Positions 24,287-52,117 of a stretch of DNA of 64,000 nucleotides are shown piece by piece. This DNA is from Eutreptiella sp. 'Long Island Sound 2002' (Eukaryota; Euglenozoa; Euglenophyceae; Eutreptiales; Eutreptiaceae). Made by a program: the position numbers and the translations under genes. Location of the stretch: the NCBI GenBank assembly GCA_964036045.1, contig OZ038382.1, positions 77,785,918 through 77,849,917 on the forward strand, read 5' to 3'. Each line of letters starts with the position of its first letter. Position 1 is the stretch's first letter. Below the pieces are notes generated by a model. It was not told where the DNA came from and did not search any database. It saw nothing but the letters and a program-made list of their open reading frames with translations.

Positions 24287-24376
24287 GCAGACAGTCTCTG
24301 CGTACCGGCAGCAACCCCGTGCCCTACATCCAGTGCGCCGAGATCTGTCATATATAAGCAGGAAGGGCGAAAGAAT

Positions 24377-26866: not shown

Positions 26867-27400
26867 CGAGGACGCTCCGGTGGGGCCCTGGACTTCGTGT
26901 TCTGGGTACGTATCCGACTAGGGGGACATGAATACCTGGGGGTATTGGACACTGGGGCCACCATATCAATAGTGGCCAAGAAAAGTTTACCTTGTGGGAG
27001 CCTGAAGAACACCATGACCACCGGGCCTATACGAATGGGGTATGGGCATGTGTTGCACAGCTGCGGGGACTGTGAAGTGGAGGTACCTATGGGCTCACGA
27101 ACTATCGCCCATCGGTTCTATGTGATTGACACTGAAGCCTTCGACTTTGTATTGGGAACTGACTTCTTCGTGCAGCACCCCCAGATACAATCCCTGACGC
27201 TGCAAGCGCCCTACTCCCTCTACGTGGACCAGGGCGAGGGCAGAGAGTCTGTGCCACTGGAGCAGTCTGAGCACACCTCGAGCTACCTTAGGGTATCGAA
27301 GGAGGAGCCTTCGAACATGATGGCGGCCTCCAAAACTGAGGACTATCAACTATTGGGGGAAGTCTTAGACCAAGGTGATGAAGGAGTTGGGTTACTCTAG
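26867..27400 (+). CDS. gypsy-1 retropepsin (protease)
   Basis: In phase with gag after its TGA, with no ATG near the start (the first start-like codon is GTG 26897). 'YLGVLDTGATISIVAKKSL' carries the D-T-G-A active site and 'FDFVLGTDFF' is the LG-D flap-base motif. The protease would mature the gag-pol product. It overlaps the pol frame by about 26 nt; pol is in the +1 phase. Confidence 0.8.
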   Translation, partial: RGRSGGALDFVFWVRIRLGGHEYLGVLDTGATISIVAKKSLPCGSLKNTMTTGPIRMGYGHVLHSCGDCEVEVPMGSRTIAHRFYVIDTEAFDFVLGTDFFVQHPQIQSLTLQAPYSLYVDQGEGRESVPLEQSEHTSSYLRVSKEEPSNMMAASKTEDYQLLGEVLDQGDEGVGLL

Positions 27401-30400: not shown

Positions 30401-31799
30401 GCTGAAGTGGACCCATGAGTCCAGCGGTCATGTGGGTGCTGACCGTACCCTGAGGCTATTCAAGCAGTGGTTCCACACTACGTGGACTGACGACCAACTG
30501 CGGAAAATCCTCCAGCCTATCGTGGACAAGTGCTCGTGTAGGTCCTGCAAACCAGGGGATATCAGGGACAGAGGTCCCTACTCGACTCTGCCCATCCCTC
30601 ATTGTGCTAACAGTGTTCGATACGTGGACTACACAGAGATGCCGAAGTTTGGGGGCTATGACTTCGCCCTCGTGGTAACCTGTGGGTTGACCAGGTTCAC
30701 CAGGGTGTTCCCGTGTACCAAGCACATACCCCGGGAGGAGACTATCAAGATACTCCTGGAGGAGTGGTTTTGTGTCTATGGGGCGCCCAAAGAGATCAAC
30801 TCCGATGAGGACGTACGAGTACGCTCAGATACTGGCTGGTACAAGAGGGTCCTGAGATCCCTCAATGTCCAGTTGTCTACGGGGATCCCCTACTCCCACA
30901 CGAGCGACCCCCTATGTGAGCGACAGATTCGTGTCCTCAAGGAGAATGTAAGGATATGGTGCAAAACTGAACGCACCAGAGACTGGGTGAGACTACTCCC
31001 CGTCATATCCTTGATGATGAACTCCCAAGAGAGTTTGGCGACTGGCTACTCGCCCCATGAGCTATTCTTAGGGCGCCCGGCGTGGTTTCTACATGCCCCC
31101 TACCCAGAAGACACCCATTCTTCCGTGGGTGAGTGGGTCCAAGAGCAACAAGCGAAGGTGGACAAGGCCAAGGCTATGCTCCAGAGAGTGAGGGAGCGTC
31201 AGTGGAACAAGAAGAACAAGCACCGAGTACCAGCCACCTACCAAGAGGGCAACTGGGTTCTGGTGCACCACAGCCGACTACCCGCCTGGCCACGCAATAC
31301 CAGCGATGACCCATACTTCGGGCCCTACAAGAATCTATCAGTGGATGGACACCGTATCACTGTGCGGTGTTCTCCCCGTCTAGGGGGGACCCTGGTGTGC
31401 GCTGCTCAACATCTGAAGCGCTACTATGATGCTGAAGACCTCTGTGGGGAAGGGTGGGAGCTTCACGATGAGGAAGTCGCCGCCCTAGACCTACAAGGGG
31501 CTGCCAGCCCTATGGAAGTTGAAGGGGAACTCCCTGACATGAACGCCCAGGAGATGGCTAAGGAGAGCTTCAACCTGGTGAAGTCTGTCCTACGCCACCG
31601 CTATCGCCAGGGTTGGCGCTTCCTCACCCTCTGGGAAAGGTTTGGAGTCGAAGAGGCCACCTGGGAGCCCTTCTCTGCGTTTGTTCTACCTGTGGGACGC
31701 CTAAACTCAGTTCTGGTTGACTATTTGTCCCAGAACAACCTCGATGAGCTGCCGAGGGTCGCTGAGACGCTTGACTCCAAGACTAAGGCTAGGGACTGA
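27375..31799 (+). pseudogene. gypsy-1 pol: methylase-like module, RT, RNase H, integrase, chromodomain
   Basis: Homologous end to end with gypsy-2 pol. Decay: an extra G near 28310 and a one-base loss near 28612 that together restore phase; TAA at 28827-28829 (TAC in gypsy-2); TAA at 30243-30245 (CAA in gypsy-2). RT has 'AHIDDV' in place of YxDD, also in gypsy-2. The RNase H strand 'WLCNQEPV' has Asn where gypsy-2 has Asp. Integrase (from ~30372) keeps 'HESSGHVGADR', a C-x2-C, and the D, D, E motifs 'YVDYTEM', 'NSDEDV' and 'LCERQIR'. The C-terminus ('SVLRHRYRQGWRFLTLW') is a chromodomain that targets integration to modified histones in chromoviruses. Confidence 0.88.
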
Positions 31800-34028
31800 A
31801 CCATACCCTTACCTGCCTAAGCGTATGTGTTGGTGTGCTATTCCTATGGTCCTGAGAGCAAGCCGCAGAAGTGGTGTCCTAGTTATACCCAAGTCTGCCC
31901 GATTGCTAAACCTGGAGGATGCCCCGGGTCTCTCCTCTCCTAAGCGCCCAATTTCCGTGCTGGCACAAAACCTTGGGGGAATACCCAGCATACTAATCCA
32001 GGTATTGTTTTCCCTACCTATCTGTCTACTACAGGGAGGGGTGGCCAAAAGCTATGAAGGCTTGAAAACGCCTATTTGCTACGATGGCCAAAATCTAGCC
32101 TAACCACTGCCACTGCCCACCAACCCTGCTCAAATTGCAGGAAACGGGTGGGACTGAGACACACGCACTACAGGTCCTACACATCCTACAGTGGCACCAT
32201 CCTGGTGGGCGAGCGCTACTGCAACTGGCTCAAGCCCCCACTCAAGACTACCACTCCTACACGCAGGCTTTACTGGGTGGCGTTGAAGATGAGGACAAGA
32301 GCCCTAGCGGCTCACCTGTGAGAATACAAGAAAACACAGAGCTACTAAGCGTCTGTGGCCTAACAGGGACGCCACAACGCGTTTCCCTGCTAGGGCTTGG
32401 AGGGAAGGAGTGCTCTTGGGGCGTGCACAGCGCATATGTCAATGGAGTCGGACTCCTGTCCCTGCCACAGGCAGAGGCGGAGTTAGTTGTTTGTGTGATC
32501 AGCCCCCTTGTTTAGCAATGCAGGAAAAAAAGCGAACGCTGCTGCACCAATCACCCTCACCTTCCGACCTGTAAAGCAAAGGCAGATGACTGAGGTTTGC
32601 GGCTGAGGAACCAAGACTACCTCCACGTATTATACGCTTCTCAGGTAGCCCTATAATACGCTGTCCTCAAACCTCAGTACAAGCAAGCAAGCTTAAGGAA
32701 CTCCACCCGTTCTCTTATAGAACGTGGGGTGGAGCCCCTAGGTACCCTAGACAAGGGTTGTACCGAGCGCACCACGCGTGGCCTACCCTTTGAATGCGTG
32801 TGTGAATGCATGGGCATGCACGAGTTGACGCTCAGCCTGTGGCATTCTACCTAAGCTTACCCACAATCACGTACTCCACCAGGGGGTGGCCCGACCTGGG
32901 CTTACCTACGTTACTCACCGCTGGAGAGTGAAGCAAGGTGAGGGAAAAGCGAGACACAAGCGAAAAACTACGCTATGCATATGTGTGTATGTCTAATCAC
33001 CCTGGACTTCCCTCTAATCATCTGCAATCTTTCTAATCTTTCCCTCTCTCGTTTGCTAGCGCTGCTACAAGGCACGTTCACGGAGACACGAGACGAGCAA
33101 TGTGCATGCTCCAAACGGGACGAGCACACCTGTGGTCTATACCTGATTCATTGAAGTCCTTCTGTTGATTTTTGAAATCTTGAATTTTGGATTCTCTCTG
33201 CCAATGAGGGTGGAATCTTTATGTTTGTTTTTTTCTGTGTGTTTCGTCATTTTTGTCATTCTGCGTAACATACATTTATAATCTTATTAATTCTCTATTT
33301 TCTCGGCGCTTGGCTAGGAGCCGCTCCTGCGCGCCGCCTTTATCTGCATAAGAATTTCTTCACTTAAAAAATCAAGAGATGACTACAAATTTTATAAAAA
33401 TGTGCATCTGATGTACAATTGGATTCTGTCCAGGTGTGTGCCTTCAGAAAAATTCTAGGCCGTCATTGGACGGATTTAGGTGTTGTTGCTTCGCGTTTGC
33501 GTGGATTTGTCCCTCATACTCCCATTCCTCTGTTGTACAGACCTCCTCGCAAAGCCTCGTTGAGTAGGCCGCTGTTCTGGCCGAAAAGCAGCAGCAGGAG
33601 ACTGAACCAGAATCGAGACCCCTCCAAGGGGCAATTCTAATTAAATCAGCGCACCCTCGCCCCAGTACCAGGACAGGTGTCTCCAACAGGTTCCTTGAGA
33701 CTTGGGTCGAGCGTCCTATGAGAGTCTGGCGCTGGGTTGTGTTACGCTGCACCTTGGAGGGAGGGATGTACATGCATATGGTCTTGGCATGCCCTACTCT
33801 AACGCCACCAAGCCACAGGAACCCCGGCAGCGCCAAGAGCGCTGAGGTTTCTGTTGGAGATTGTCATCAACAATGCAGCAAGAGTCGCTGCCCATGGTAA
33901 AGAGCTCTTTTCCAGTGTTAGGGAAGCTATAGGTATTTGAAAGTAGGTGTGGAAACCAAGGAAAGGCCAAGAAAAAATCTCTTCTTCCTGAAAAAGCGAC
34001 AGTGGTGGCCACCACAGCGCAAGGGGGG
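31800..34028 (+). other. gypsy-1 3' region, non-coding
   Basis: About 2.2 kb between pol and the 3' LTR, alignable in blocks with the 3' region of gypsy-2. No conserved sense ORF. It contains the two-stem hairpin at 32590-32677 and ends in a polypurine tract, caaggggggggtaag, at about 34019-34033. Confidence 0.6.
32590..32677 (+). other. two-stem hairpin in gypsy-1 3' region
   Basis: Outer arms CTGAGGTTTG (32590-32599) and CAAACCTCAG (32668-32677) pair over 10 bp. Inner arms CGTATTATA (32626-32634) and TATAATACG (32652-32660) pair over 9 bp. Gypsy-2 has the same inner arms but different, still complementary outer arms, which points to a selected RNA or DNA structure. Confidence 0.7.
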
Positions 34029-34819
34029 GGTAAGATAAAGTGCTTTTTCAATGCTTCAGGGTAGACGTTAGTTGTATTAAAGGTGCTCTAAGCACTCATG
34101 CATTTTTATCTTAGTATTGGCACAACCAAAATGGGTGATAACACATTTTGACCTATGGAACCAAAAACTAAATCTGGATGTTGTGTGGACCCCTTTATCC
34201 CTAAGCTATAGGCAGTAAATATCTTCTCCTGGGTTGCTGAGGCACTGATATACTGAGGGCAGAGCCTATGAATTTGTCCATGTTTTCTCATGAATTCTGA
34301 GCTATCCTAGTGGTATGCACCCTAGGGGGCTGGGGCACCTCTTTTTGAGAGGTCCTGGGTTCAATACCCAGTCAGCCTAGCTAAGTAGGATTCTCCCATG
34401 TGACATGGCAGTGACCTCAGCGCCACAAGCCATGCCACCTCAGCATCTATGGGACCCAAAAACAAGGAGTGCACATCTCAAAATGGCACTGTGAATGAGA
34501 GTGAGCCCTTGGGGCAGTTGTCCGCTCAGCCTTTCTCAAACATGTAAAATATTTCATCCTGAGTTGCAATGTATGCTAATTGCTGTTGTCTATTGTTGAT
34601 AGTTGTCTTTATCTAACTCTTTGTGACTGCAGCCCTTCATACTTTGATCCTGATCTTCTTCTACTTGCTTATCTCTGGCTTGGGTTATCCTGGATTGGTT
34701 GTATTTCAACAATAAAACATTTTCCTCATCAAAAACAAGCAGCACGAAACCTACACCAGCAGCAAGCAGCAGGAGAGGCACAACAAACACACAGTGTTGA
34801 AATCACTATAAAACGTTCT
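34029..34819 (+). repeat. gypsy-1 3' LTR
   Basis: About 791 bp, from GTAAGATAAAG after the polypurine tract to ...AAACGTTCT, followed by the TSD GCGCG (34820-34824). It includes the tRNA-like module at about 34305-34375 with TTCAATA in the T loop. Confidence 0.85.
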
Positions 34820-35353
34820 GCGCGGAGAAGTCAGTGGTCCTGAGAAGGGGTGGCAAGGGCGGTATGGCGCTGGATGTTGGACACGGGGTGGCGTGGCTGG
34901 AGAGGACAGAGGAAGCAGTGGCGCTGGGACATGTGCAGGCCATGGAGGCGGAAGGCGTCAGGCTGCCAGCAAAATTGCTCAGGGCGTTCAGGGCGATGCT
35001 GGTGGTCCTCCGGAATCACCCCCCGTCGGTGCAGACAACCCTGTACCACCTCCAAGCAGTGCTCAATGCAGCGATAGGGTACCAGGGGATGCACCTCCTG
35101 TACTGGAGGGGGCAGCTGGAGGAGATGGAGGCGGAAGTGCGGAGGCTCATCAGGGGGTATCAGGGAATACCCACGGAGGTGTGTGTTGCGATCGCCGACG
35201 GCCTACTATGGGGAGGGGATGCCCATGGCGGGGGAGGCGTACAGGGCACATATGGCGAGATCGCTGAACGGGATGTGCCACAATCAGGAGGAGGTGGAGC
35301 GCAGGGTGTGCTACCATGCGGTCGCGGAGGTGCAGAAGGAGGAGAACATGTGC
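34820..35353 (+). pseudogene. element A ORF2 part 2: RT thumb/connection
   Basis: Resumes A's frame with 'EKSVVLRRGGKGG' after the TSD. The segment is helical ('LLRAFRAMLVVLRNHPPS', 'TLYHLQAVLNAAIGYQGMHL') and equals the post-YVDD region of B. A one-base shift near 35200 moves coding into the next phase ('YYGEGMPMAGEAYRAHMARS'), which runs to ATG TGC at 35348-35353 and continues at 52123 with 'PRYFWHRQRRLA'. Confidence 0.8.
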
Positions 35354-36150
35354 AGAAACGTTTATAATGGTTTCAGCAGTGTGTTTTTGCTTCTCCTGCT
35401 GCTTGCTGTTGCTGTAGGGTGTCCTGCTGCTTGTTTTTGGAGATGAAAAGCTTTTGTTTGTTGAAATACATTAAATCCAAGTCAATCCAGGATAGCCCAA
35501 GCCAGAAGTATGCAAGGAGAAGAGAATCAGGATCAAAGCATGAAGGGCTGCAGTGTAAACAGTGAAAGATGATTGGATATTCACAGAAACTGCAACTCAG
35601 GTCAAATTGGAATGCATATCCACAAAGATAGCTAAAATTGTTTTGGAAAAGAGTTGGAAAACTGCCCCAAGGTCACTCTATCTCCATAGTGCCATCTCAG
35701 GAGATGTGCACTCTTTGTTTTGGGTCCCATATGTGCTGAGGCGGCAGGGCATGTGGCGATGAGGTCACTGCCATGTCACATGGGATCCTCCTACTTAGCT
35801 AGGCTGACCAGGAATTGAACCCAGGACCCCTCAAAAAGAGGTGCCCAGCCCCCTAGGGTGCATACCACTAGGATAGCTAAGAATTCATGGAAAAACATAG
35901 ATAAATTCATAGGCTCTGCCTTGGGTATGTCAGTTCTCAGTCAACTCAGGAAAGGATGATTTGCCTCACATTGAAAGGGGATTAAGGGGTCCACTCCATA
36001 TCCTGATTGGGTGTTTGGTTCCACAGGTCAAAATGTGTTATCACCAGTTTTGGTGGGACCAATACTAAGATAAAAATGCATGGATGCTCAGTGCATCTCT
36101 AATACAACTAGAGTATGCCTCAAAGCAATGGAAAAGCACTTTTTCTTACT
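35354..36150 (-). repeat. gypsy-2 3' LTR
   Basis: 797 bp; the - strand reads AGTAAGAAAAAG...AAACGTTTCT. A polypurine tract (+ strand ccccccttgt at 36151-36160) precedes it in the sense direction. A tRNA-like module lies at about 35800-35880. Confidence 0.85.
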
Positions 36151-38080
36151 CCCCCCTTGTGCTGTGGTGGCCACCACTGTCGCATTTTAGGAAAAAGGGA
36201 TTTTTTCTTGGCCTTTCCTTGGTTTCCACATCTACTTTAAAATACCTATAGTTTCCCTCACACAGAAAAAAGGGCGCTCACCATGGCTGGCGCTCTTTTG
36301 CTGCTCTGTATGTAACATTTCCTACAGAAGACTCAGCGCTCATGGCGCTGCCGGGGCTCCTGTGGCTTGGTTGGGTTAGTTTGGGAGCATGCCAAAACAG
36401 GTGCATGTGCATCCCTCCCTCCAAGATGCAGCGCGACACGAACCCAACGCAAGACACAATATACACACTCGCATGGGTTCTCGTAAACCTGCTGGCGACC
36501 TGTGACCTGTCTCAGGGCGAAGGGAGTCGTCAAAAAAAATTAAATTGCCCCTTGGTGGGGTCTTGGTTCTGCTCAGTCTCTCCAGGCACCTGCGTTTCGG
36601 CCCGAACACGGCCTACTCAGCGAGGCTGCGCCCCTGTATCTGCAGAGGCAGCAATGGGAGAATTATGGACGAATCCACGCAAAAACGAAGCGACGACACC
36701 AAAATCCGTCAAATGACGGCCTAGAAGTTTTCTGAAACAACACACCTGAGCAGAATCCAATTGTGCATCAGAAGCACATTTTTATAGAAATCATAGTCAT
36801 CTCTGGATTTTTGGAATCCTGAAATTCATACGCATAAAATGGCAACGCGCAGGAGCGGCTCCTAGCGAAGCGCCGGAAAATGGAGAAATAATTGAATTAT
36901 AAACGTATGTCTCACGTAGTCTTGAAAATGACGAGACACACATTAAATAAACATACAGATTCCACCCACACTATAAGAAGAATCAAAAATTCAAGAATTC
37001 GAAAATGAACGAAAAAGACTTCAATGAATCAGGTATAAACTACAGGTATGCTCGTCTCGTATGCCGCATACACATTGCTCGTCTCGTGTCTCCGTGAACG
37101 AGTCTTGTAGCAGCGCTAACAACGATAGGACGCGATGGAGGGATTGATTAGAAAGATTGCAGATGATTAGCGGTCAGATCAGGGTGATTAGACATACACA
37201 CATATGCATCGCAACGTTCTTCGCGTGCGCCCCTCACTTGCTCTCTCTCTCCGGCGGTAGGTGAGGTGAGTAAGCCCAGGTGGGGCCATCCCCTGGTGGA
37301 GTCGTGATTGCAGTAAAGATGGGCAGGTTTGCCCAACACCTTCGTGCATACTCGCGCATGCACACACGCATTAAAGGGTAGGCCACACGAAGTGCGCACG
37401 GTAAACTTTGTTTAGGCTACCCAGGGGCTCCTCGGTGTGTTCTTTAAGAGAACCTGCGGAGTCCCTTAACGCTTGCTTGCTTGACAGAGGTAGCTGAATC
37501 TTCAGCGTGTTTGCGGCCAGTGTATTATAGGTCACACTGAGAACCGTATAATACGGGGAGTGTGGCTGGGTTCCTCCGCCGCAAACGCCTCTTCATTTGC
37601 CTTTGCTTTACAAGTGGGCAGGTAGGGTGATTGGTGCAGCAGCATACCATTCTTTTCATGCCCTGCTAAACAAGGGCGCAGATCACACAAACAAATAACT
37701 CCCCTCTGCCTGTGGCAGAGCAGGGAGTCCGACTTCTTCGACATCTGCGCCGTGCACTCAAGAGCACCTCTTCCCTCCAAGCCCTAGCAGGGGAAACGCG
37801 TTGTGGCGTCCTCTGTTAGGCCACAGTTGCTTAGTAGCGCTGTGTTCTCTTGTCATTTCACAGGAGGGTCGCTAGGACCCACGACATGTTCTTCAACAAC
37901 ACCAAGTAGAGTGTGCGTGTAGGAGTGGTAGTCCTGAGTGGGGGCTTGAGCCAGTTGCAGAAGTGCTCGCCCACCAGGATGGTGCCACTGTAGGGTGTGT
38001 AGGACGGGTAGTGTGTGTGTCACAGTCCCACCCGTTTCCTGCAATTTTAGCAGGGTTGGTGGGCTGTGGCAGTGGTTAGG
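36151..38080 (-). other. gypsy-2 3' region, distal part
   Basis: Corresponds to about 32.1-34.03 kb of gypsy-1. No conserved sense gene. It holds the hairpin at 37509-37586 and ends at the TSD of the T-poor insertion (38081-38090). Confidence 0.55.
37509..37586 (-). other. two-stem hairpin in gypsy-2 3' region
   Basis: GTTTGCGGC (37509-37517) pairs with GCCGCAAAC (37578-37586). GTATTATA (37522-37529) pairs with TATAATAC (37547-37554). Counterpart of 32590-32677. Confidence 0.7.
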
Positions 38081-38090
38081 TCAGTGTTTT

Positions 38091-38766
38091 GATGGATCTC
38101 TTTGCCAAACATACCATGTCGTGCGCGCTGGCGCCTGGCGCCAGAACGAAATAAAAAGACGAGTAAAACACGACGAAAATTGTTTCTGAATAGCTGAAAA
38201 TAAAGCTAATTAGCATAAAAAACGCTTAGGCCCAAAAGCGCGCTGCGAAACGCGTAAAAACGCGACAAAAAATTTTTCGACGTGAAATAGGTGAATAGTT
38301 AACGCCGTAAGCACCGTAACGCTCGTGGGACCCCAACGCCGTCCTTGCCGTCGTCTAACTCGCTATAGGCGCAAAGAAAAACGCGTCGCGAGCAGCGCGT
38401 AAAACTCGAAGATTTTTCATAACTCGCCACGACCCCTCCCGTCGCACCCTGCCGCCTTTTTCTTCTTATTCTTCATGCACCTCCCTCCCCACCCTCGTGC
38501 CCATCACTCCCCTTGCCCTGCAGCTCAGGCGGCGGCCCTGGGGGAACGCGGTTAACCCTTCGCAATGGACATCAACACGCTCCACGACGCCACGCACAAG
38601 AACGAGGCCGAGAACATCAAGAACGACGGGTAACACGTAAGGCACAGCCGCGAACATGGTCTTGCTGCACGCGAGTGTGTTGGGTCGTGTATAATTTTAT
38701 TTTATTTTCAAAAAAAAAAAAAAAGAAAAGAGTTTTCAAAGGCACGGAAAAACGGCAGGGGTTTTT
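38091..38766 (+). other. 5' part of the T-depleted insertion
   Basis: Mixed composition with A-rich patches. A 22-codon frame from ATG 38565 ('MDINTLHDATHKNEAENIKN') ends at TAA 38631-38633; I do not recognise it and it may be chance. It is followed by gtgtataattttattttatttt and an A14 run with one G at about 38709. This could be a captured transcript end, but that is speculative. Confidence 0.4.
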
Positions 38767-40500
38767 AGCAAAAGAAAAGAGGACAAAACAAACACCAGCA
38801 GCGCAGACAACCGCACAGCACAGCCAACCAGCACAGCACCGCAGGACAGCACGGCACCGCAGGACACGGCACAGAGCGCAGGACACCACAGGACAACGCA
38901 CAGCACAGCAAGACACCACGACACACCTGAGCAGCACCACCACACCGCAGAACGCCCAGGGAGACACCACAACGCACAGGGACACGCCACAGCACGAGGC
39001 ACCAACAACAGCGCAGACGACACAGGCGCCGCACGAAAGGCCGCAGGAGGGCAAAGCAAACACAAACAGCACCGCAAAACGACAGCAGGGCACGACAGCA
39101 CAGCACCACACGACAGCACAGCGGCACAGCACACGACACAGGGAAGCAGGGCACCACAGCCAGCACAACAAGGCACCGCAGCGCACAGAGCGGAGAAGAC
39201 AGGGAACACACAGCGCGAGGAAAAGAGCACCACAGCACGCAGACACCACCACCGGGCCAAAAACAGCACAGCCAACCAACAGCACAACACAGCACAGCAC
39301 GACAGCCCACAGGAGGGCAAAGCAAGCCCCGACAGCACCGCAACACAACAGCAGAGCACAGCACCACAGCACCACGCGACAGCACAGCACCACAGAACAC
39401 GACACAGGAAAGCAGGGCACCACAGCAAACCACACCAAGCACAGAGAAGCAGACCACGCGGCCAGACAAGGACACCGACACCGAAACACGCCACCAGCAG
39501 ACAACCACGGGCCACCAGACCCAGCACCGCACGACGGCACACCACAGGAAACAGCACAACACACAGCAGCGCACCACAACACCAAGCGCCAGCAGCAGCA
39601 CGCACCACACGAACAGCACAACGCAAGCGCACCAGCACAGCGAAGCACAGCACCGCACAGAACGGAGAGCACAGGGAACGCACAGCACGCACCACCGCGC
39701 CACGACAAAACACACAGAGCACACAGCGCGGGGGAACACCGCAAAACACAGCGCCGCAGAGCACAGGGCCCCAGAGCGACGGGCAGCGCCAGAGGGCACG
39801 GCGCAACAAGCAGCGGCACCAAACGAGCGCAACACAGCACACGCCAGCACAACACCGGGCGACACAACGCGCAGCAGCGCGGCGCAGCACCGCACCGCAC
39901 CGGGGGACGCACAGCACAACACGGCACACAGCACCGAGCGGCAAGAACGAAAACCGCGGGACACAAAGGGGGGGGGGGGGGGAGCAGCAACCACGCGGGA
40001 GCAGCCAACAGCCAAGGGGAAAGCACGAAAGAGGGACAGGCGCACGGAGAGCCGAGAAGCGGAAGGCCAACAAAGCAAACAACGCAAGCGCCGAGGCCCA
40101 GGGCACCCGGGGCCGGAAACCCAAGAAAGCCGGAGACAACGGGGGCGTACGGAGAAAGAAGAAGAAAAAAAAAAAAAAAAAACACCAAGGCCACAAGCAG
40201 GAGCGACGAAAACCCGAGACACAAAGGGGGGCGGGGCGGGGGAGCAACCACCAACGAGCAGCCAACGGCCAAGCGGAGGACACAAACGAGGCGCGAGCCA
40301 AGCAGCGGGAGGCCGAGAAAAACAACCAACGGGGAAAGGCAACAGCAGCGAAAAAGAGAGGGGCAACCCCAGCCCGGAGGGGGCCAAGCAAAGCAGAAAG
40401 ACAAAGCGGCCAAAGGAAAAGGTGAGGCGCACCAGAACGCGCCCGGGAGGCCGGCCCGCCCGACCCGGCCAAGAAGAGCAAGCACACGCAAACACGCACG
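38767..40500 (+). repeat. T-free block 1 (ACAGCAC-like and purine-rich)
   Basis: The only T between 38929 and 40422 is at 40148; 38929-40147 is 1219 bases with none. The first 1.2 kb is built of irregular agcaccacagcac-like words, then purine-rich sequence with G15 (39968-39982) and A18 (40165-40182). The + frames can only use codons for hydrophilic residues, Pro, Ala and Gly; the - frames only F, L, S, C, W, P, R, V, A and G. Neither is a natural protein composition. Confidence 0.9.
40338..40473 (+). repeat. 136-bp direct repeat in the insertion, copy 1
   Basis: Starts ggcaacagcagcg and ends cgacccggccaag. A near-identical copy is at 41125-41260. The two enclose the least T-depleted part of the insertion (40500-41040). 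Confidence 0.8.
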
Positions 40501-41124
40501 GGACCCGGGTGTGGCGTCCTCCGACCCGCAAGGGGAGGTGTCGGCGTCCACACGAAACAGCCCCGGTGCACCGGCCGAGTCCCCCGTCGAAAGACGGACG
40601 GTACGGGAAACCGGACGCGTCAGTGACCGGGTCCGCACACGCCAACCACCGCAGCGCACGCAGCCCAAGACCGACGCCGGAGGGACCCGCCAGGGACAAC
40701 CCCATCGCGGGGCCCCGAACGGGTACGACGCGGAGAGCCCAGCGCCCCTGCCTCGGCGGGGGCCAGCGGCAGGCACAATGAGCCCGGTTCTCGGCCGGCC
40801 TCCGCGTGCCCTGCGCAGCCGCCCAGTAAAGCCGGGGGCGCAAGCTCCCGGGGTGGGGAAAGGCACCACGGCGTCGGGAAAGCCGACCGGAGCACCGAGA
40901 GCGACCGGACCGGACGAGGCGCGGCGCACCACGCGGGGCCACGAGGCACGCCAGAGAGGCACGCCGCCGGCCACAACCAAGGCACACGGACAGGTGCCAA
41001 GCAGCGACGGCCGCCGGGTGCCACAAACCCGGAGAGCGCGCACAACACGCAAAGAACCACGGCACACGAACAGGTGCCAAGCAACAGCCAACCCACACAC
41101 CACAAACCCCAGCCAACGAGGAAC
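40501..41124 (+). other. insertion segment with near-normal T content
   Basis: GC-rich; T is present at a few per 60 bases, unlike the flanking blocks. No gene recognised. A caggtgccaagcarc repeat occurs near 40991 and 41071. Confidence 0.5.
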
Positions 41125-41260
41125 GGCAACAGCAGCGAAGGAGAGGGGGGCAACCCCAGCCCGGAGGGGGCCAAGCAAAGCAGAAAGACAAAGCGGCCAA
41201 AGGAAAAGGTGAGGCGCACCACAACGCGCTCGGGAGGCCGGCCCGCCCGACCCGGCCAAG
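41125..41260 (+). repeat. 136-bp direct repeat in the insertion, copy 2
   Basis: Second copy of 40338-40473. It leads directly into the 190-bp tandem array. Confidence 0.8.
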
Positions 41261-41290
41261 CAAAACACGCACACCACCGCCGCCAGCGGA

Positions 41291-42363
41291 CCCCAGCCAG
41301 GAGTGGCGGGGACCGCCCACCACCAGCGGCAGCGAAACCCAGCCAGGAGTGGCGGGGAGTAGCACACAGGAACCTCCGCCAGGAGTGGCGAGGGACCAAC
41401 CACACCACACACCAGCCACAACCCCACAAACACACCACCGCCACACACCACACACCACACACCACACACCACCGCCGCAAGCGGACCCCAGCCAGGAGTG
41501 GCGGGGACCGCCCACCACCACCGGCAGCGAAACCCAGCCAGGAGTGGCGGGGAGTAGCACACAGGAACCTCCGCCAGGAGTGGCGAGGGACCAACCACAC
41601 CACACGCCAGCCACAACCCCACCAACACACCACCGCCACACACCACACACCACACAGCAACGCCGCCAACGGACCCCAGCCAGGAGTGGCGGGGACCGCC
41701 CACCACCACCGGAAGCGAAACCCAGCCAGGAGTGGCGGGGAGTAGCACACAGGAACCTCCGCCAGGAGTGGCGAGGGACCAACCACACCACACACCAGCC
41801 ACAACCCCACCCACACACCACCGCCACACACCACACACCACACACCACACACCACCGCCGCAAGCGGACCCCAGCCAGGAGTGGCGGGGACCGCCCACCA
41901 CCACCGGCAGCGAAACCCAGCCAGGAGTGGCGGGGAGTAGCACACAGGAACCTCCGCCAGGAGTGGCGAGGGACCAACCACACCACACACCAGCCACAAC
42001 CCCACCAACACACCACCGCCACACACCACGCACCACACAGCAACGCCGCCAACGGACCCCAGCCAGGAGTGGCGGGGCCCACCCAACACCACCGGAAGCG
42101 AAACCCAGCCAGGAGTGGCGGGGAGTAGCACACAGGAACCTCCGCCAGGAGTGGCGAGGGACCAACCACACCACACACCAGCCACAACCCCACCAACACA
42201 CCACCGCCACACACCAGACACCACCGCCTGGCAAACCCCAGCCAGGAGTGGCGGGGACCGCCCACAACCACCGGCAGCGAAACCCAGCCAGGAGTGGCGG
42301 GGAGTAGCACACAGGAACCTCTGCCAGGAGTGGCGAGGGACCAACCACACCACACACCAGCCA
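41291..42363 (+). repeat. six-unit ~190-bp tandem array
   Basis: Units begin with ccccagccaggagtgg at 41291, 41486, 41674, 41869, 42057 and 42236, giving lengths 195, 188, 195, 188 and 179: an alternating higher-order pattern. Each unit holds three copies of ccaggagtggcg and a CA-rich stretch (caccacacac). Nearly all T bases of this block lie in the gagtgg and agtagc words. Long frames through it are by-products of T depletion. Confidence 0.9.
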
Positions 42364-43080
42364 CAGAGCAACCGCCAGCCGAGGGAAGGCAACGGGAGGA
42401 ACAGCCCGGCAGGCCCCCCCCCCCGGAAAAAAAAAAAAAAAAAAGGGGGGGGGGGCGGGCGCGCGAAAACAGCCCACAGCCACCAAACCGCCCACCAACG
42501 ACACAGAAGGGGGCCAAACCCCCCACCCAGAGGGCACCGAAGACAGGACCCCCAAACAGGCACAGGGGGACCACCCAGCCAAGACCGGCAACACCAAGCC
42601 AGCGACAGCGGCCCACCGGAAAAAAGGGACATCGAAACAAGCAGAAAAAAAAAAAAAAAAAAAGCCAGCAGCCCCCGAAAGAAAGGAGACGGGGGAGAGA
42701 CCACAAGGCCCGGGCCAAGGACAGCCAGCAACCGGAAAAAAAAAAAAAAAAAAAAACAAAAAAGCGCAAAAAACACAACCCGACAACCCAGCCAAGAAGG
42801 GCGGGGCACAGCCGAGACCCGGGCGCCCACACCGCACACCGGAACCGGAAACGACGGGGGGCAAGGGAAACGCGCAGGAAACCACACAGGTCCCGAAAGC
42901 AGGCCCACACCAAAGCCCAACCACGAACACCACAAACAGCCGGCAAAAGAGGGACAACACCACAAACCGAGCCCAAACACACCCACCCAAGACCCCAGCC
43001 ACAACGGGCAGGGGTGAACAAAACCCACGACCAACCGCAACCCGGACCCAACCACAAACGCAAGCCAACAGTAGGAAACC
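42364..43080 (+). repeat. T-free block 2 with poly-A tracts
   Basis: Only a handful of T (42632, 42891, 43015, 43072). A18 at 42427-42444 is followed by G11; A19 at 42645-42663; A21 at 42736-42756. No T tract occurs, so tract polarity is uniform. Confidence 0.85.
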
Positions 43081-43555
43081 CAGTGCCCACAGCCCGGGCA
43101 CTGAGGCAGCCCGTGCCATGCAGGTGACCCGGCCAAACGAGATCCGGAGCCCGGGGGTAAGGCTGCATCCTAAAGCCTGCGCTGCTTTGGGACTCGAGGC
43201 GGAGCGTGCGACACCCAAGCGCCTCGGAACCCTAGTACCAAGAACATGCATGCATGCCTTGGGAACGGGATACGCCAGGAAGTCCGGTGAACCCCTAGGG
43301 TTCCGCCCAAAGGAGGGGACGTGCGCAAGCACGGGGGCCCACCCTCCCGGCGAGACAAGCATGTCACGCTGGCGGCGATCAGCCCTCCCGGTGTAGCCCG
43401 GGGCCGCTTTGTTGGGGGCCAACAGTCAGGTCTAGCGGGATGTAAGCCGCCTCCCCTCTTCACGCGCGGAGCCTCTTCCTGTTCGTCACAGGGGCGACGC
43501 CAGGGGGAACCATGGGGCGCCTCTCCACGACCGAGTGCACCTACCTACCTACCTA
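43081..43555 (+). other. 3' end of the T-depleted insertion
   Basis: Ordinary GC-rich composition, ending in four ACCT units. The first part (ccggagcccgggggtaaggctgc...) has short G/C hairpins. No gene. Confidence 0.5.
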
Positions 43556-43565
43556 TCAGTGTTTT

Positions 43566-43878
43566 GGCCACATAGCAGAAAGGCGTTTTCATGCCTTCAT
43601 AGCTTTTGGCCACCCCTCCCTGTAGTAGACAGATAGGTAGGGAAAACAATACCTGGATTAGTACGCTGGGTATTCCCCAAAGGTTTTGCGCCAGCACAGA
43701 AATTGGGCGCTTAGGGGAGGGGAGACCCGGGGCGTACCCCGTCGCATCAATAAGCCAACCCTCCAGGTTTAGCAAGCGTGCAGACTTGGGTATAATTAGG
43801 ACGCCACTTCTGCGGCTTGCTCTCAGGACCATAGGAATAGCACACTCACACATACACTTTGGCAGGTAAGGGTAAGGT
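43566..43878 (-). other. gypsy-2 3' region, proximal part
   Basis: Follows the pol stop on - and matches 31800-32095 of gypsy-1 up to the insertion site. Non-coding. Confidence 0.6.
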
Positions 43879-46800
43879 TCAGTCCCTAGCTTTAGTCTTG
43901 GAGGCAAGCGTCTCAGCGAGCCTCAGCAACTCAAGAAGGTTGTTCTGGGACAAGTAGTCAACCAGAACTGAGTTTAGGCGTCCCTCAGGTAGAACAAATG
44001 CAGAGAAGGGCTCCCAGGTGGCCTCTTCGACTCCAAACCCTTCCCAGAGGGTGAGGAAGCGCCAACCCTGGCGATAGCGGTGGCGTAGGACAGACTTCAC
44101 CAGGTAGAAGCCTTCCTTAGCCATCTCCTGGGCGTTCATGTCAGGGAGTTCCCCTTCAACTTCCATAGGGCTGGCAACCCCTTGTAGGTCCAGAGCGGCG
44201 ATTTCCTCATCGTTCAGCTCCCACTCCTCCCCACAGAGGTCTTCAGGATCATGGTAGCGCTTCAGGTGTTGAGCAGCGCACACCAGGGTCCCCCCTAGAC
44301 GGGGAGAACACCGCACAGTGATACGGTGTCCATCCACTGATAGAATCTTGTACGGCCCGAAGTATGGGTCATCGCTGGTAGAGCCTGGCCAGGCGGGTAG
44401 TCGATCGTGGTGCACCAACACCCAGTCCCCCTCTTGGTAGGTGGCCGGTACTCGGTGCTTGTTCTTCTTGTTCCACTGACGCTCCCTCACTCTCTGGAGC
44501 ATAGCCTTGGCCTTGTCCACCTTCGCTTGTTGCTCTTGGACCCATTCACCCACAGAAGAATGGGTGTCCTCTGGATAGGGGGCATGTAGGAACCATGCCG
44601 GGCGCCCTAGGAATAGCTCATGGGGCGAGTAGCCAGTAGCTGAACTCTCTTGGGAGTTCATCATCAGAGATATGACGGGGAGTAGTCTCACCCAGTCCCT
44701 GGTGCGTTCAGTTTTGCACCATATCCGTACGTTCTCATTCAGGACACGGATCTGTCGCTCACATAGGGGGTTGCTCGTGTGAGAGTAGGGAAAACCCGTA
44801 GACACCTGGACATTGAGGGATCTCAGGACCCTCTTGTACCAGCCAGTATCTGAGCGTACTCGCACGTCCTCATCGGAGTTGATCTCCTTGGGCGCCCCAT
44901 AGACACAAAACCACTCCTCCAGGAGTATCTTGATAGTCTCCTCCCCGGTAATGTGCTTGGTACATGGGAACACCCTGGTAAACCTGGTCAACCCACAGGT
45001 TACCACGAGGGCGAAGTCATAGCCCCCGAACTTCGGCATCTCCGTGTAGTCCACGTATAGAACACTGTTGGCACAGTGTGGGATGGGCAGGGTCGAGTAG
45101 AGACCTCTGTCCCTGATATCCCCTGGTTTACAGGACCTGCACGGGCACTTGTCCAAGATAGGCTGGAGTGTTTCCCGCAGTTGGTCGTCAGTCCACGTAG
45201 TGTGGAACCATTGCTTGAACAGCCTCAGGGTGCGGTCAGCACCCACATGACCACTGGACTCATGGGTCCACTTCAGCAGCGCTGGGACTCGGTCACTAGG
45301 CACCACGATACGGTCCCCGTGCCATAGGTAGCTCTTGTCCCTCTTCCACTGGTCTTGGTTGACCAGGAGGGGTTCAAGGCGTTTCTCCAGGCGCTTGTAG
45401 ATATCCCCGAACTCCTTCAGGTACTCCGATTGTTGGAGTCCATCCAGGGGGCGTATCATCGTCATGTTGAGGTCCAAGTGGACGTCCATACGGCTGAACG
45501 CCTCCTTAGCCAGCGCTTCAGACCGGGCACCAATCAGGGCGTCGAACTTGTTGCGGCTGATGTAGTCGGCACACTCGTTCTTCACACCCTGGATATGGTG
45601 TACCGTCAGCCGTAGTTGACTGAGGTAGGTCCACCAGCGTCGTAGCTTGGCCTTCTCAGGTGGGGGACCCTTCTGGAAACTGCGGACCGGTTCTTGGTCG
45701 CACAGCCAGACCACAGGGTTACTCCCCAATAGTCGTGCTTGAGAGGATAGCACCAGCATACCCGCGAGCAATTCCTGCTCATAAGTGGAGTAGTTCCCCC
45801 TGGCCTGGTTCCACTTCCAGTTCCAGTGGCCCAGAGGTACTAGGACCCACTTGTCATCAGGGTAGCTGTGCTTGAGGGTTCCATCTCGGTTGAGACCTTC
45901 CGTCCCCCATTTGGAAATGGCCGAGTCGAACTCCTCCTTCTCTAGTGCTTGCCATTGGAACAACGTTCCACCACCGCCCACATTGCTGGCGTCGGTCACC
46001 AGTATAATCTCCCCCTGTGCCCTAGGCACGCCCAAGCACTTAGCGTTGGCTACCTTGTCTTTGAGCTCGTCAAACACTTGTTGCTCTTGTGGGCCCCAGC
46101 GCCAAGTAGTACTCTTCTTGATCAAGTCCGTCAGTACGGCGCTGGTATAGGTGAAGTTTTTGATGTGGCGGCGATAGAAGTTGCACGCCCCAATGAAGCT
46201 GCGTACATCATGAAGTCCTTTCTTGGGGTTTTCGTGTCGTACCTTGGCATCCATCAGGGGTTTGGCCTTAGAGGCCGCTTGGGTCCACCACCCATAGCCA
46301 ACGTCAAACGCCAGGTACTGCATGGTCTCCTGCATGAACTCACACTTCTCCAGCTTGAGTCGTGTGTGGTTCTCTTGGCAGACCGCAAAGAACTCACCCA
46401 AGAGGATTAGGTGATCCTCCTGGGTATTGGTCCCGAGGCATACATCGTCGATGTGAGCCTCCATCTGGGCACCACGGGATATGAGCTCCTGCACCTTAGG
46501 TCTCCTTCGTAGGATGGACAAGATCTTGTTCATCAGCTCTTGGAATAGAGCGGGTGCGTTAGCCACGCCAAACGGCATGACCTTCCACTTGAACACCCTC
46601 CCCTGAGGGGTGATGAAGGCCAGTAGTTCCTGTGCGTTGGGCGTCAGGTCCACTTGCCAGAATCCGCTCCTCTTGTCCATCTTGGTCTTGTAGCGGCAGG
46701 AGGCTATCTTCTCCAGGGTAAACTCCATATTGGGAATGGACCCTGAGTGGTTCAGCATCTTCTTGTTCAGCTCTCCGTAGTCCACTACCAGCCGTTTGGC

Positions 46801-48318
46801 TGTAGACCCAGGTTTAGCCACCAGGAAACAGGGGCTGCAGTGTAGGGGGTAGTCCCCGTCCTCGTACTCCAGGACTAGGCCAGCGTCGATACATTCTTGT
46901 ATCTGTCGCTCAATCTCGTCGGCCTGCTCTTTAGGAGCTGGATAGGGTCTCCTCCGGATCTTGTGACCCGCGAACTCGCGTTTCAGCTTGAGGTCCATCT
47001 GTACCAGGTTGTCACATGAGGCTGGAGGGGGTAGTTCTCCGAACACCTCCAGATAGGTCCTTATAAGCTTCTGTACCCGCGGGTCCAATATCTTGATCTT
47101 GTCCTCCATTTCCTCGTCAGAGTGTAAGTTGCTTGCCCCCTGAGTATCAGACGTCGGGAGGTGGTCCTCCACCGACTCTTCGCCCGTGGTAGTATCCTTC
47201 AGCCCTTGGTAGGCATATAGAAGGTCTTGTTCAACCATCTCCGGTGGACGATGGCAACATAGGCAAGCTCGAGGGGGTTCACATACACATTCCTCCGAGA
47301 TGTCGTCCTCCTCTGGGGTCCTCACATGGGCGCCCCACACGCTCTTCATGAGCTTAGGATCTACCTCCCTTTGCCAGGTGGTGATCTTCTGTTCGAGGTC
47401 CTCCTTCAATTGCGATAGGCCTCCCATACGTCCTTGCTTCAGTGGCCACGAGCTGCGGGTAGGCTTCACGTAGCATAGCTTTTTCGCCACCAACTTCCTC
47501 TTGGAATCCACATACTCCCTGAGCCTGGATCGAGGGTCCAGCTCCTCGTCCACGGGGTCTTCCACCCTCATGGAGAGTAAGGGTTTCAGTGGGGCGACGT
47601 ACTCGGCGTTCTCCACTTCCTCCACACAGGTCTGCACGAAGAAGGTGTCGTGCTCAGTCTCGTCGTCTGAGCGGATAGAGCTAGGTAGGTCAGATAATCC
47701 ACACTCAGAGACTCCATCAGGAACAGGTACATGACAGGGAGAGTTGGGGGCGTTGGTGTCAGTCACGACGTACTCATCTCCTCCGGTTGTAGTCTCGACA
47801 GCATCTTGAGGTCGTAGGCGATCCTTCAAGTCACCCAAGGCGAGTCCATCGCTTTCTCGTTGTATAGCCTGGACCAGAGTCGGCTCCAGGTCCTCCCAGG
47901 GGATGGAGGTAAGACCTCCGTCCACCACGCTCAGCATACTCCCCCATCCGGGTTTCCCAATAGGCGTCTTACGACCCAGAGGTACGTAGATGGCCTCATC
48001 AGGCAAACGAACAGAGCTGATAGTCAGCCTGTCCAGGAGGTTCCGCCAGTATTCGTTGCCCCCATGGGCTCCCCAATCGGGGGAACACAGCACCATACGG
48101 GAACGTTCCAAGGCCACCTTGGTCAGCACCTTCCCCAGTTCACTGGACCTGGGGTTCCCGTAGGCCATCCCGAAGGAGGGCCAGTAAAATTTGTAGCTGC
48201 AGTTCTTCCCCTTGCTGCAGTATAGGTCCAGTACATGCTGCTTGTCGCTGGCGAACAACTCCACACTCAGGTCTTCTCGAGAGTAACCCAACTCCTTCAG
48301 ACCTTGGTTGATAGTCAT
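43879..48318 (-). CDS. gypsy-2 pol polyprotein, intact
   Basis: 1479 codons from an ATG at 48318 that lies +1 to the protease frame. Residues ~8-95 are a methylase-like module ('VELFASDKQHVLDLYCSKG', 'MAYGNPRSSELGKV', 'RMVLCSPDWG') resembling the Dam-like region of DIRS elements. RT ~480-700 has 'VVDYGELNKK', 'MPFGVANAPALFQ' and catalytic 'AHIDDV' (~residue 621). RNase H ~765-920 has 'VTDASNVGGGG', 'YEQELLA', 'WLCDQEPV' and 'ECADYISRN'. Integrase ~1005-1230 has H-x4-H and C-x2-C, then D (~1087, 'YVDYTEM'), D (~1146, 'NSDEDV') and E (~1185, 'LCERQ'). Chromodomain ~1400-1455 ('SVLRHRYRQGWRFLTLWEGF', 'EATWEPFSAF'). Confidence 0.93.
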   Translation of the reverse strand: MTINQGLKELGYSREDLSVELFASDKQHVLDLYCSKGKNCSYKFYWPSFGMAYGNPRSSELGKVLTKVALERSRMVLCSPDWGAHGGNEYWRNLLDRLTISSVRLPDEAIYVPLGRKTPIGKPGWGSMLSVVDGGLTSIPWEDLEPTLVQAIQRESDGLALGDLKDRLRPQDAVETTTGGDEYVVTDTNAPNSPCHVPVPDGVSECGLSDLPSSIRSDDETEHDTFFVQTCVEEVENAEYVAPLKPLLSMRVEDPVDEELDPRSRLREYVDSKRKLVAKKLCYVKPTRSSWPLKQGRMGGLSQLKEDLEQKITTWQREVDPKLMKSVWGAHVRTPEEDDISEECVCEPPRACLCCHRPPEMVEQDLLYAYQGLKDTTTGEESVEDHLPTSDTQGASNLHSDEEMEDKIKILDPRVQKLIRTYLEVFGELPPPASCDNLVQMDLKLKREFAGHKIRRRPYPAPKEQADEIERQIQECIDAGLVLEYEDGDYPLHCSPCFLVAKPGSTAKRLVVDYGELNKKMLNHSGSIPNMEFTLEKIASCRYKTKMDKRSGFWQVDLTPNAQELLAFITPQGRVFKWKVMPFGVANAPALFQELMNKILSILRRRPKVQELISRGAQMEAHIDDVCLGTNTQEDHLILLGEFFAVCQENHTRLKLEKCEFMQETMQYLAFDVGYGWWTQAASKAKPLMDAKVRHENPKKGLHDVRSFIGACNFYRRHIKNFTYTSAVLTDLIKKSTTWRWGPQEQQVFDELKDKVANAKCLGVPRAQGEIILVTDASNVGGGGTLFQWQALEKEEFDSAISKWGTEGLNRDGTLKHSYPDDKWVLVPLGHWNWKWNQARGNYSTYEQELLAGMLVLSSQARLLGSNPVVWLCDQEPVRSFQKGPPPEKAKLRRWWTYLSQLRLTVHHIQGVKNECADYISRNKFDALIGARSEALAKEAFSRMDVHLDLNMTMIRPLDGLQQSEYLKEFGDIYKRLEKRLEPLLVNQDQWKRDKSYLWHGDRIVVPSDRVPALLKWTHESSGHVGADRTLRLFKQWFHTTWTDDQLRETLQPILDKCPCRSCKPGDIRDRGLYSTLPIPHCANSVLYVDYTEMPKFGGYDFALVVTCGLTRFTRVFPCTKHITGEETIKILLEEWFCVYGAPKEINSDEDVRVRSDTGWYKRVLRSLNVQVSTGFPYSHTSNPLCERQIRVLNENVRIWCKTERTRDWVRLLPVISLMMNSQESSATGYSPHELFLGRPAWFLHAPYPEDTHSSVGEWVQEQQAKVDKAKAMLQRVRERQWNKKNKHRVPATYQEGDWVLVHHDRLPAWPGSTSDDPYFGPYKILSVDGHRITVRCSPRLGGTLVCAAQHLKRYHDPEDLCGEEWELNDEEIAALDLQGVASPMEVEGELPDMNAQEMAKEGFYLVKSVLRHRYRQGWRFLTLWEGFGVEEATWEPFSAFVLPEGRLNSVLVDYLSQNNLLELLRLAETLASKTKARD

Positions 48319-48790
48319 CAGTTTTGGAGGCCGCCATCATGTTCGAGGGCTCCTCCTTCGATAGCCTCAGGTAACTCGAGGTATGTTCCGACTGCTCCAG
48401 TGGCACAGACTCTCTGCCACTGCCGTGGTCCACGTAAAGGAGGTAGGGCGCTTGCAGCGTCAGGGATTGTATCTGGGAGTGCTGCACGAAGAAGTCAGTC
48501 CCCAGTACAAAGTCGAAGGCCTCAGTGTCCATCACATAGAACCGATGGGCGATAGTACTGTGGCCCATAGGTACCTCCACTTCACAGTCCCCGCAGCTGT
48601 GCACCACATGTCCATCCCCCATGCGTATAGCAGCGGTGGTCATGCTGTTCTTCAGGCTCCCACAAGGTAAAATTTTCTTGGCCACTATTGATATTGTGGC
48701 GCCGGTATCCAATACCCCCAGGTATTCACGTCCCCCTAGTCGGATACGTACCCAAAACACCAGGTCTTGGGTGCCACCAGAGCGTCACCG
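48140..48790 (-). CDS. gypsy-2 retropepsin (protease)
   Basis: Same phase as gag, after TGA CGG TGA at 48793-48785. 'YLGVLDTGATISIVAKKIL' holds the D-T-G-A site and 'FDFVLGTDFF' the second motif. It runs ~180 codons into overlap with pol (48318-48140), which is read in the +1 phase. No ATG start, so translation most likely arrives from gag. Confidence 0.8.
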
Positions 48791-51220: not shown

Positions 51221-51308
51221 CTTCAGTCACCCTTCTGCTTATATTTGCCCGTACTCGGCGCACTGGATGTACGGCACGGGGTTGCTGCCGGTGCGCAGAG
51301 ACAGGCTG

Positions 51309-51321
51309 CCTCTTGCTACCA
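51309..51321 (-). promoter_or_regulatory. gypsy-2 primer-binding site
   Basis: On - TGGTAGCAAGAGG, the initiator tRNA-Met complement with one extra A, directly inside the 5' LTR. Confidence 0.7.
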
Positions 51322-52117
51322 GAAAAGTTTATAGTGGTTTCAGCACTGTGTTTTTGCTTCTCCTGCTGCTTGCTGTTGCTGTAGGGTGTCCTGCTGCTTG
51401 TTTTCCGAGATGAAAAGCTTTTGTTTGTTGAAATACAGTAAATCCAAGTCAATCCAGGATAGCCCAAGCCAGAAGTATGCAAGGAGAAGAGAATCAGGAT
51501 CAAAGCATGAAGGGCTGCAGTGTAAACAGTGAAAGATGATTGGATATTCACAGAGACTGCAACTCAGGTCAAATTGGAATGCATATTCACAAAGATAGCT
51601 AAAATTGTTTTGGAAAAGAGTTGGAAAACTGCCCCAAGGTCACTCTATCTCCATAGTGCCATCTCAGGAGATGTGCACTCTTTGTTTTGGGTCCCATATG
51701 TGCTGAGGTGGCAGGGCATGTGGCGATGAGGTCACTGCCATGTCACATGGGATCTTCCTACTTAGCTAGGCTGACCAGGAATTGAACCCAGGACCTCTCA
51801 AAAAGAGGTGCCCAGCCCCCTAGGGTGCATACCACTAGGATAGCTAAGAATTCATGGAAAAACATAGATAAATTCATAGGGTCTGCCTTGGGTATGTCAG
51901 TTCTCAGTCAACTCAGGAAAAGATGATTTGCGTCACATTGAAAGGGGATTAAGGGGTCCACCCCATATCCTGATTGGGTGTTTGGTTCCATAGGTCAAAA
52001 TGTGTTATCACCAGTTTTGGTGGGACCAATACTAAGATAAAAATGCATGGATGCTCAGTGCATCTCTAATACAACTAGAGTATGCCTCAAAGCAATGGAA
52101 AAGCACTTTTTCTTACG
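51321..52117 (-). repeat. gypsy-2 5' LTR
   Basis: 797 bp, the pair of 35354-36150. A tRNA-like module lies at about 51768-51848. Followed by the TSD TGTGC (52118-52122). Confidence 0.85.

Follow-up and report, generated by a model that had tools for sequence, protein, structure and literature searches.

The window, a 64,000-nt stretch of DNA that was analysed at its full length, carries two related Ty3/Gypsy elements. Gypsy A lies on the + strand (23485-34820) and Gypsy B on the - strand (35353-52116). Their LTR pairs are 94.6% and 98.0% identical, respectively, and the frames of both encode reverse transcriptase, RNase H and integrase domains. Gypsy B is broken between pol and the 35353-36149 LTR by DNA that is absent from Gypsy A. 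The inserted DNA occupies positions 38092-43555 (5.46 kb) and ends in (CCTA)4. The original prediction had described a recent 5.5-kb insertion. This is confirmed by the uninterrupted Gypsy A, by the duplication of TCAGTGTTTTG on either side of the insert and by the 3′ matches; the best 40 genomic matches listed for the 3′ 477 nt of the insertion are all 99-100% identical. The features of the locus are collected in Table 1.

Table 1. The insertion, its component parts and the Gypsy element that hosts it.
Feature	Positions	Strand	Remarks
Ty3/Gypsy LTR element hosting the insertion	35353-52116	-	LTRs 35353-36149 and 51320-52116, 98% identical; pol frame 43879-48336
Target-site duplication, left copy	38081-38091	.	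11 bp, TCAGTGTTTTG; Gypsy copy 23485-34820 is uninterrupted at that point
Copy-specific extra bases between duplication and 5′ head	38092-38116	+	Start-of-frame-like in the window copy (ATGGATCTC...)
5′ head, ~20% T	38117-38766	+	Conserved across subfamilies, including L055 with a different body and 3′ end
U-free block 1	38767-40422	+	In 40 copies, none of the columns has a clear T majority; diverged internal duplications
U-poor, G+C-rich segment, ~4% T	40423-41269	+	Mostly bracketed by a 165-nt direct repeat
Tandem array of short RNA hairpins	41270-42365	+	Units of ~190 nt; form CCCC-A-GCCA-GGAG-UGGC-GGGG
U-free block 2	42366-43014	+	Poly-A and poly-G tracts; the window copy has T at 42632 and 42891
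3′ region, ordinary T content	43015-43539	+	Near-identical among young copies
3′ tail, (CCTA)4	43540-43555	+	
Target-site duplication, right copy	43556-43566	.	11 bp, TCAGTGTTTTG

The element has neither terminal repeats nor terminal inverted repeats, as judged by self-comparison and a search for repeats with a 25-nt minimum for inverted pairs. Besides the duplication, only internal repeats were found. Many of the genomic copies carry extra bases between the duplication and the head, and these differ from copy to copy. The extra bases may stem from template jumping at the end of reverse transcription. Within the conserved head there is a 22-codon frame, MDINTLHDATHKNEAENIKNDG, at 38565-38633, followed by GGTAACACG. 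This frame could be the captured first exon of a host gene. In block 1, the internal duplication of 38779-39700 and 39047-39939 is 67% identical, and others are 74% and 93% identical. The 165-nt direct repeat is found at 40323-40487 and 41110-41274. Both of its copies keep AAAGGTGAGG (40418-40427 and 41205-41214), which is among the few T-bearing motifs retained and which we take to be close to the splice-donor consensus.

Each unit of the tandem array comprises three short hairpins. The predicted folds of single hairpins have energies of -11.5 to -12.8 kcal/mol, and stretches of the array fold with z scores of -3.2 and -2.3 relative to shuffles. The window copy contains 18 instances of the hairpin core, CCAGGAGTGGC, and 19 other copies contain 15-34 each. 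Block 1 is no more structured than its shuffles (z 0.3 to 1.4); block 2 is more structured (z -2.3). Searches of Rfam gave no match in the window at gathering thresholds, and none in the insertion up to an E value of 5. Conserved residual T outside the array had no predicted pairing preference (67%, compared with 66% for the control). Hence, a rule by which U is allowed only in stems, considered for 40423-41269, was dropped. The rule holds for the array alone, where the stem-pairing evidence is limited by repeat units that are not independent.

The most striking part of the element is the run from 38929 to 40147. In the window copy, these 1,219 nt comprise A 438, C 441, G 340 and T 0. A single T, at 40148, separates this run from the next, which covers 274 nt at 40149-40422. 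Run boundaries and the sequence give four T in 42364-43080. All of these counts agree with the original prediction, which had reported no T in the first interval, one T on extension to 40422 and four or so in the later block. In the rest of the 64,000-nt window, no T-free run exceeds 107 nt (59900-60006). At the T frequency of the window (11,552/64,000), the probability of 1,219 successive non-T bases is ~10^-105. Chance is therefore excluded, and an accident of base composition is as implausible as had been claimed. The depletion is also strand-specific, as had been proposed, and follows the element's own orientation. Since T makes up 20% of the 5′ head and 15% of the 3′ end, the RNA is not U-free throughout.

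Copies were sought in the genome, which comprises 2.28 Gb in 2,205 contigs. The 5′ head probe gave 3,508 first-look candidates, a probe from 40430-40970 gave 3,576 and the 3′ end gave 1,287. These are not copy counts; for each probe, the best 40 were scored. The insertion belongs to a retroelement family of high copy number in which no coding region can be recognised. Together with the window copy, 19 copies found with the head probe made up a 20-copy set that was aligned from the head on. A further 20 copies were compared over the block only, which brings the total to 40 including the window's. Alignment was limited to the copies that most resemble the window copy. Because the head probe ends at 38600, upstream of the block, its copies were not selected for a lack of T. 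The T-poor region was at the same position in all 19 head-probe copies, and all 39 other copies were T-depleted at the same place over block 1. T-free runs exceeding 1,219 nt were present in 14 of these 39 copies, with a maximum of 1,662 nt. Judged by column majority in the 40 copies, the T-free block of the family is 38767-40422, and so is longer than first reported. The T at 38928 and 40148 of the window copy deviate from that majority. In the aligned columns of the block, each copy has 0-13 T that depart from the majority, the value of 13 belonging to the divergent copy L039. T depletion shared with 39 other copies must be a family trait, and is neither the editing of a single copy nor an artefact.

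The ends of the copies bear on how the element moved. All but one of the 20 copies (L019) reach the same short-repeat 3′ end. The eight copies obtained with the internal probe are all 5′-truncated, at differing points, with unrelated DNA upstream; the truncation falls within 38163-40132 in six of them and beyond 40430 in two. Duplications of 10-16 bp, some of which may contain a few tail bases, flank 10 of the 19 copies with a readable 3′ end. The same test gave no duplication in the other 9, and the chance expectation is 0.003 per copy. Target-primed reverse transcription typically leaves a shared 3′ end with a short-repeat tail, shortened 5′ ends and duplications that differ in length. From these marks, the + strand is the RNA strand. 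Taken together, the variable 5′ truncation, common 3′ end and 10-16 bp duplications indicate target-primed reverse transcription of the non-LTR type. Seven long open frames of the insertion gave no Pfam match up to an E value of 0.1. With neither reverse transcriptase nor endonuclease matched, the element does not qualify as an autonomous LINE. The insertion is best explained as a non-autonomous, non-coding retroelement, present here as a full-length copy.

Differences among the copies were sorted by base and by how many copies share them. The polarity of changes was set by column majority or by midpoint-rooted parsimony, and p-values are guides since the copies are related and not independent. 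In block 1 of the 20-copy set, changes to T account for 32 of 184 single-copy differences but only 3 of 87 shared differences (p = 8e-4). Among the shared changes, C>T was found at 1/560 sites and G>A at 28/466 (p = 3e-9). With 39 copies, there were 39 single and 3 shared C>T changes, compared with 92 and 52 for G>A (p = 2e-4). With all 40, the respective numbers were 43 and 3, and 133 and 81. Note that L039 aligns poorly (364 differences in 883 sites) and inflates the 40-copy counts; this is the copy dropped from the 39-copy set. Internal branches gave C>T at 1/566 and G>A at 61/466 sites (40 copies), 1/565 and 56/470 (39 copies) or 1/562 and 43/469 (36 copies). Thus, the outcome was the same in the 36-copy set, from which the four divergent copies L039, L044, L045 and L046 had been removed. 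In the 39 copies, no T variant of block 1 was spread over more than 4 copies, whereas G>A reached 12. In four further copies covering the block, found with another probe, none of the 37 shared differences and 5 of the 48 private ones were changes to T.

The same asymmetry was not seen in the flanking parts of the element. On internal branches of the 5′ head, C>T (9/178) and G>A (7/146) were symmetrical in the 20 copies. All differences in the head (C>T 13/177, G>A 11/145; 20 copies) and in the 3′ region (C>T 6/162, G>A 4/154) led to the same result. The 3′ analysis rests on 18 copies, L019 being without the 3′ end and L025 interrupted by a second insertion. Per site, single-copy C>T changes were about as frequent in block 1 (21/560) as in the 3′ region (6/162). 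Such an ordinary rate is expected if T arise only after insertion. Block 1 is also more variable per site than the 3′ region and accepts indels of many lengths. In the U-poor segment, internal branches had T>C at 5/33 and C>T at 3/314 sites (p = 3e-4). Conversely, terminal branches had T>C at 1/33 and C>T at 18/314, and hence no loss of T. The asymmetry was weaker in block 2 (C>T 4/214, G>A 18/174 on internal branches), with no difference there between internal and terminal branches (p = 1.0). Overall, the pattern of substitutions shows a purge of T on internal branches, and suggests that the lineages that spawn new copies lose every T that arises while the rest of the block diverges.

Two divergent relatives extend the comparison. 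Of 1,573 sites, L046 departs from the majority at 171, in 5 cases with a T. L055 (C24:32204782-32212662) is a whole element of a sister family, at the place of L039. Its head (~620 nt) is 95% identical, whereas its body has only patches of 69-85% identity. L055 also has a different array, with 0 copies of the CCAGGAGTGGC core, and a different 3′ end. Per 250 nt, its block contains 1-5 T and its array 7-18. From the mismatch between head and body, heads seem to have been exchanged between families.

Several processes might leave a retroelement RNA short of U. One is recurrent editing, in which each cycle would bring deamination within the block, either of U in the RNA itself or of A in antisense transcripts or in first-strand cDNA, so that any new T becomes C. 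Editing would be strand-specific, keyed to the orientation of the element and able to remove T regardless of sequence. Moreover, the conserved residual T tend to have G on their 5′ side and are seldom next to A (19 of 27 preceded by G, 1 of 27 by A), like the neighbour preference of an enzyme, and T>C exceeds C>T on internal branches of the U-poor segment. We nevertheless consider editing unlikely. All 40 copies are T-depleted and none has an unconverted block. The head of the same transcript keeps its 20% T, and there is no T>C excess in it (internal T>C 5/128, C>T 9/178). Nor is there an inflow into C in block 1, where A>C and G>C are not in excess. Changes from A or G to C are rarer per site than those from C to A or G, at 25/1081 and 39/566 in 40 copies, 19/1082 and 32/565 in 39 copies and 17/1088 and 23/562 in 36 copies. 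These results weigh against the hyper-editing of antisense RNA, or adenine-directed mutagenesis of cDNA, put forward in the original prediction, given that the T-free state is common to every copy examined. The alignment of other copies, suggested there as a check, brought up no T-containing sister block among the 40, no T>C excess in the head and no inflow into C in the block. A further option is repeat expansion alone, by which the block would have grown from T-free words, be too young to have gained T and be under no present constraint. The internal duplications are indeed built from T-free words (CAG/CAC-like words and purine tracts). It had also been argued that related copies equally free of T, with no T-containing ancestor, would point to expansion, and this is the situation that we observe. 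Expansion by itself is nonetheless insufficient, and we regard it as improbable, since T was still excluded during divergence. Thus, duplicates that are ~33% diverged, L046 with its 171 substitutions and the L055 sister family are all T-poor. In addition, shared purine transitions are plentiful and C>T is nearly missing, which shuffled T-free repeats do not predict.

Transcription-linked, strand-asymmetric mutation would make G>A common and C>T rare with no need for selection, and would follow the orientation of the element as observed. We give this little credence because the head and 3′ region are symmetrical, and because C>T does occur inside the block in single copies. The case for translation is poorer still. 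If the block were translated, T might be avoided since stop and hydrophobic codons need T; T-free RNA is stop-free in all forward frames, and stop-to-stop frames on the + strand reach 929 aa. However, only 14 of 48 indel lengths in block 1 are multiples of three, codon periodicity is absent from the block and the long frames have no Pfam match. The five ATG in 38092-38930 open just 12-26 codons. C>T at third positions is always synonymous in the standard code, yet is equally absent (1/566 C sites on internal branches), which excludes selection on protein. Finally, it looks artificial for one base to be missing from more than 1 kb, as would result from faulty assembly or base calling. Such an artefact is scarcely credible when 40 of 40 copies, at separate places and on both genome strands, share the trait and have private mutations, indels, duplications and varied T-free lengths.

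Our favoured reading, which we hold with moderate confidence from the comparison of copies, is of a non-coding, non-autonomous element that moves by target-primed reverse transcription and whose spacers are under a composition-only constraint against U. Among the three processes offered in the original prediction, selection for a U-free RNA fits best. We think it most likely that the purge of T reflects selection acting on the RNA, and we infer both this reading and its cause. Because copies lie on both genome strands, selection at the level of DNA would need to know the orientation of the element. The RNA would consist, in order, of the 5′ head, a long U-free spacer, the hairpin array, a second U-free spacer, the conserved 3′ end and a (CCUA)n tail. 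Within the spacers, changes among A, C and G, and indels, would be tolerated, and each U would lower the odds of leaving descendants. Source lineages would be kept U-free in this way, with inserted copies gaining T afterwards at the ordinary rate. In this reading, proteins would bind the hairpin array, which would keep its U in stems.

As the cause of such selection, we would prefer escape from U-dependent RNA recognition in the nucleus. Splice donors with GU, U-rich polypyrimidine tracts, the sites of U-preferring endonucleases and the usual signals for decay and poly(A) addition would all be missing from a U-free RNA. It is awkward for the avoidance of splice donors that many conserved residual T follow G (19 of 27), among them the donor-like AAAGGTGAGG that is retained in each half of the 165-nt direct repeat. 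More tentatively, the spacer may be selected solely for having no uracil, with a nuclear surveillance or processing step that reads U and is strong enough to punish even a single U in non-LTR RNA; we are inclined to doubt so strict a form. The RNA would then be written in three letters over kilobases, with obligatory U placed in hairpin stems or after G.

Constraint on composition alone, without a conserved sequence, has rarely been shown cleanly. In this family of thousands of candidate copies, a stretch of more than 1.6 kb is closed to one base and open to free change among the other three. The copies form a built-in experiment; internal branches report what is tolerated in active elements, and single-copy changes report mutation after insertion. 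If confirmed, the constraint would provide a handle on which host RNA process reads uracil. It would also provide a handle on why most of the non-LTR frames here, and not those of Gypsy elements, avoid U.

The wider pattern was apparent at fourfold sites of other frames in the window. Six frames are presumed to be non-LTR, two having a reverse transcriptase match and four being without any Pfam match. In five of these, T makes up 4-11% of fourfold sites and A 15-26%. The sixth frame (12105-13454) has 11% T and 12% A. Conversely, the three Gypsy frames have 19-22% T and 17-20% A. Non-LTR elements here thus seem commonly to avoid U, the present family being the extreme case. The sense strand of LINEs, such as human L1, has a skew of A over T. 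Under-representation of T on the sense strand is a likeness shared by five of the six presumed non-LTR frames. Block 1 differs in that, across 40 copies, T clearly predominates in none of its columns, whereas the silent sites of those LINE-type frames are 4-11% T. The + strand frame at 21168-23484 encodes the endonuclease and reverse transcriptase of a non-LTR family for which the genome gave 19,801 first-look candidates. Its fourfold sites are 56% G and 4% T on the sense strand, and four other copies of the frame (L050, L051, L053 and L054) have 4-5% T and 17-18% A.

The anatomy of the element recalls known systems. SVA elements of hominids are non-coding and composite, with a variable tandem array and target-site duplications, and are mobilised in trans by LINEs. 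Our element resembles SVA, and composite non-autonomous non-LTR elements in general, in being non-coding, in its variable internal array, in having both full-length and 5′-truncated copies and in its duplications. It differs from SVA in the (CCTA)n tail and in the distinctive U-free spacer of ~1.6 kb, where the comparison is of anatomy and not of sequence. To our knowledge, a U-free spacer is not known from SVA. By analogy, the element would be SVA-like in its working and not a member of SVA.

Literature searches listed no paper on T-free or U-free retroelements. In the account given by PMC10901741 (Nature 2024), the sense strands of L1 and other transposons remain biased towards adenosine and are read by SAFB proteins, and removing the adenosine bias changes regulation. 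The likeness to our element is an evolutionarily kept, one-strand bias in the sense RNA of a retrotransposon (PMC10901741). The difference is that the SAFB case, as described there, concerns enrichment of A and purine motifs in the coding sequence of autonomous elements; here, U is absent, the sequence is non-coding and C is about as frequent as A. The words 'thymine' and 'uridine' occur 0 times in the main text of PMC10901741. By analogy, the SAFB work is a precedent for compositional tuning, and not the same phenomenon.

The T-poor region was also compared with the rest of the window by three-letter alignment, in which T is either read as C or deleted and controls delete A, C or G. No convincing T-bearing source was found elsewhere in the window, and control deletions scored far higher, from mere low complexity. 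With T read as C, the best match is between 40634-40752 and the minus strand at 14904-15016 (73% over 120 positions, E = 2e-8). The latter segment falls inside a non-LTR reverse transcriptase frame. This match may be low complexity or a trace of origin.

A further T-poor element (10% T) lies on the minus strand at 2452-10560, its 5′ limit being only estimated from composition. It contains a 378-bp tandem array (5.6 copies, 2991-5104) and a 477-aa frame (6679-8112) that has no Pfam match. Apart from the tail, the 3′ similarity between the insertion and this element is no better than for shuffles (score 27, shuffle maximum 32). A wider 3′ similarity of the two was thus rejected, the likeness being confined to the terminus. 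At this terminus, at position 2452, the sequence CCGAGT..ACCTACCTACCTAC matches the 3′ end of the insertion at 20 of 22 positions, (CCTA)n included. It is possible that the minus-strand element is a relative of the mobilising partner.
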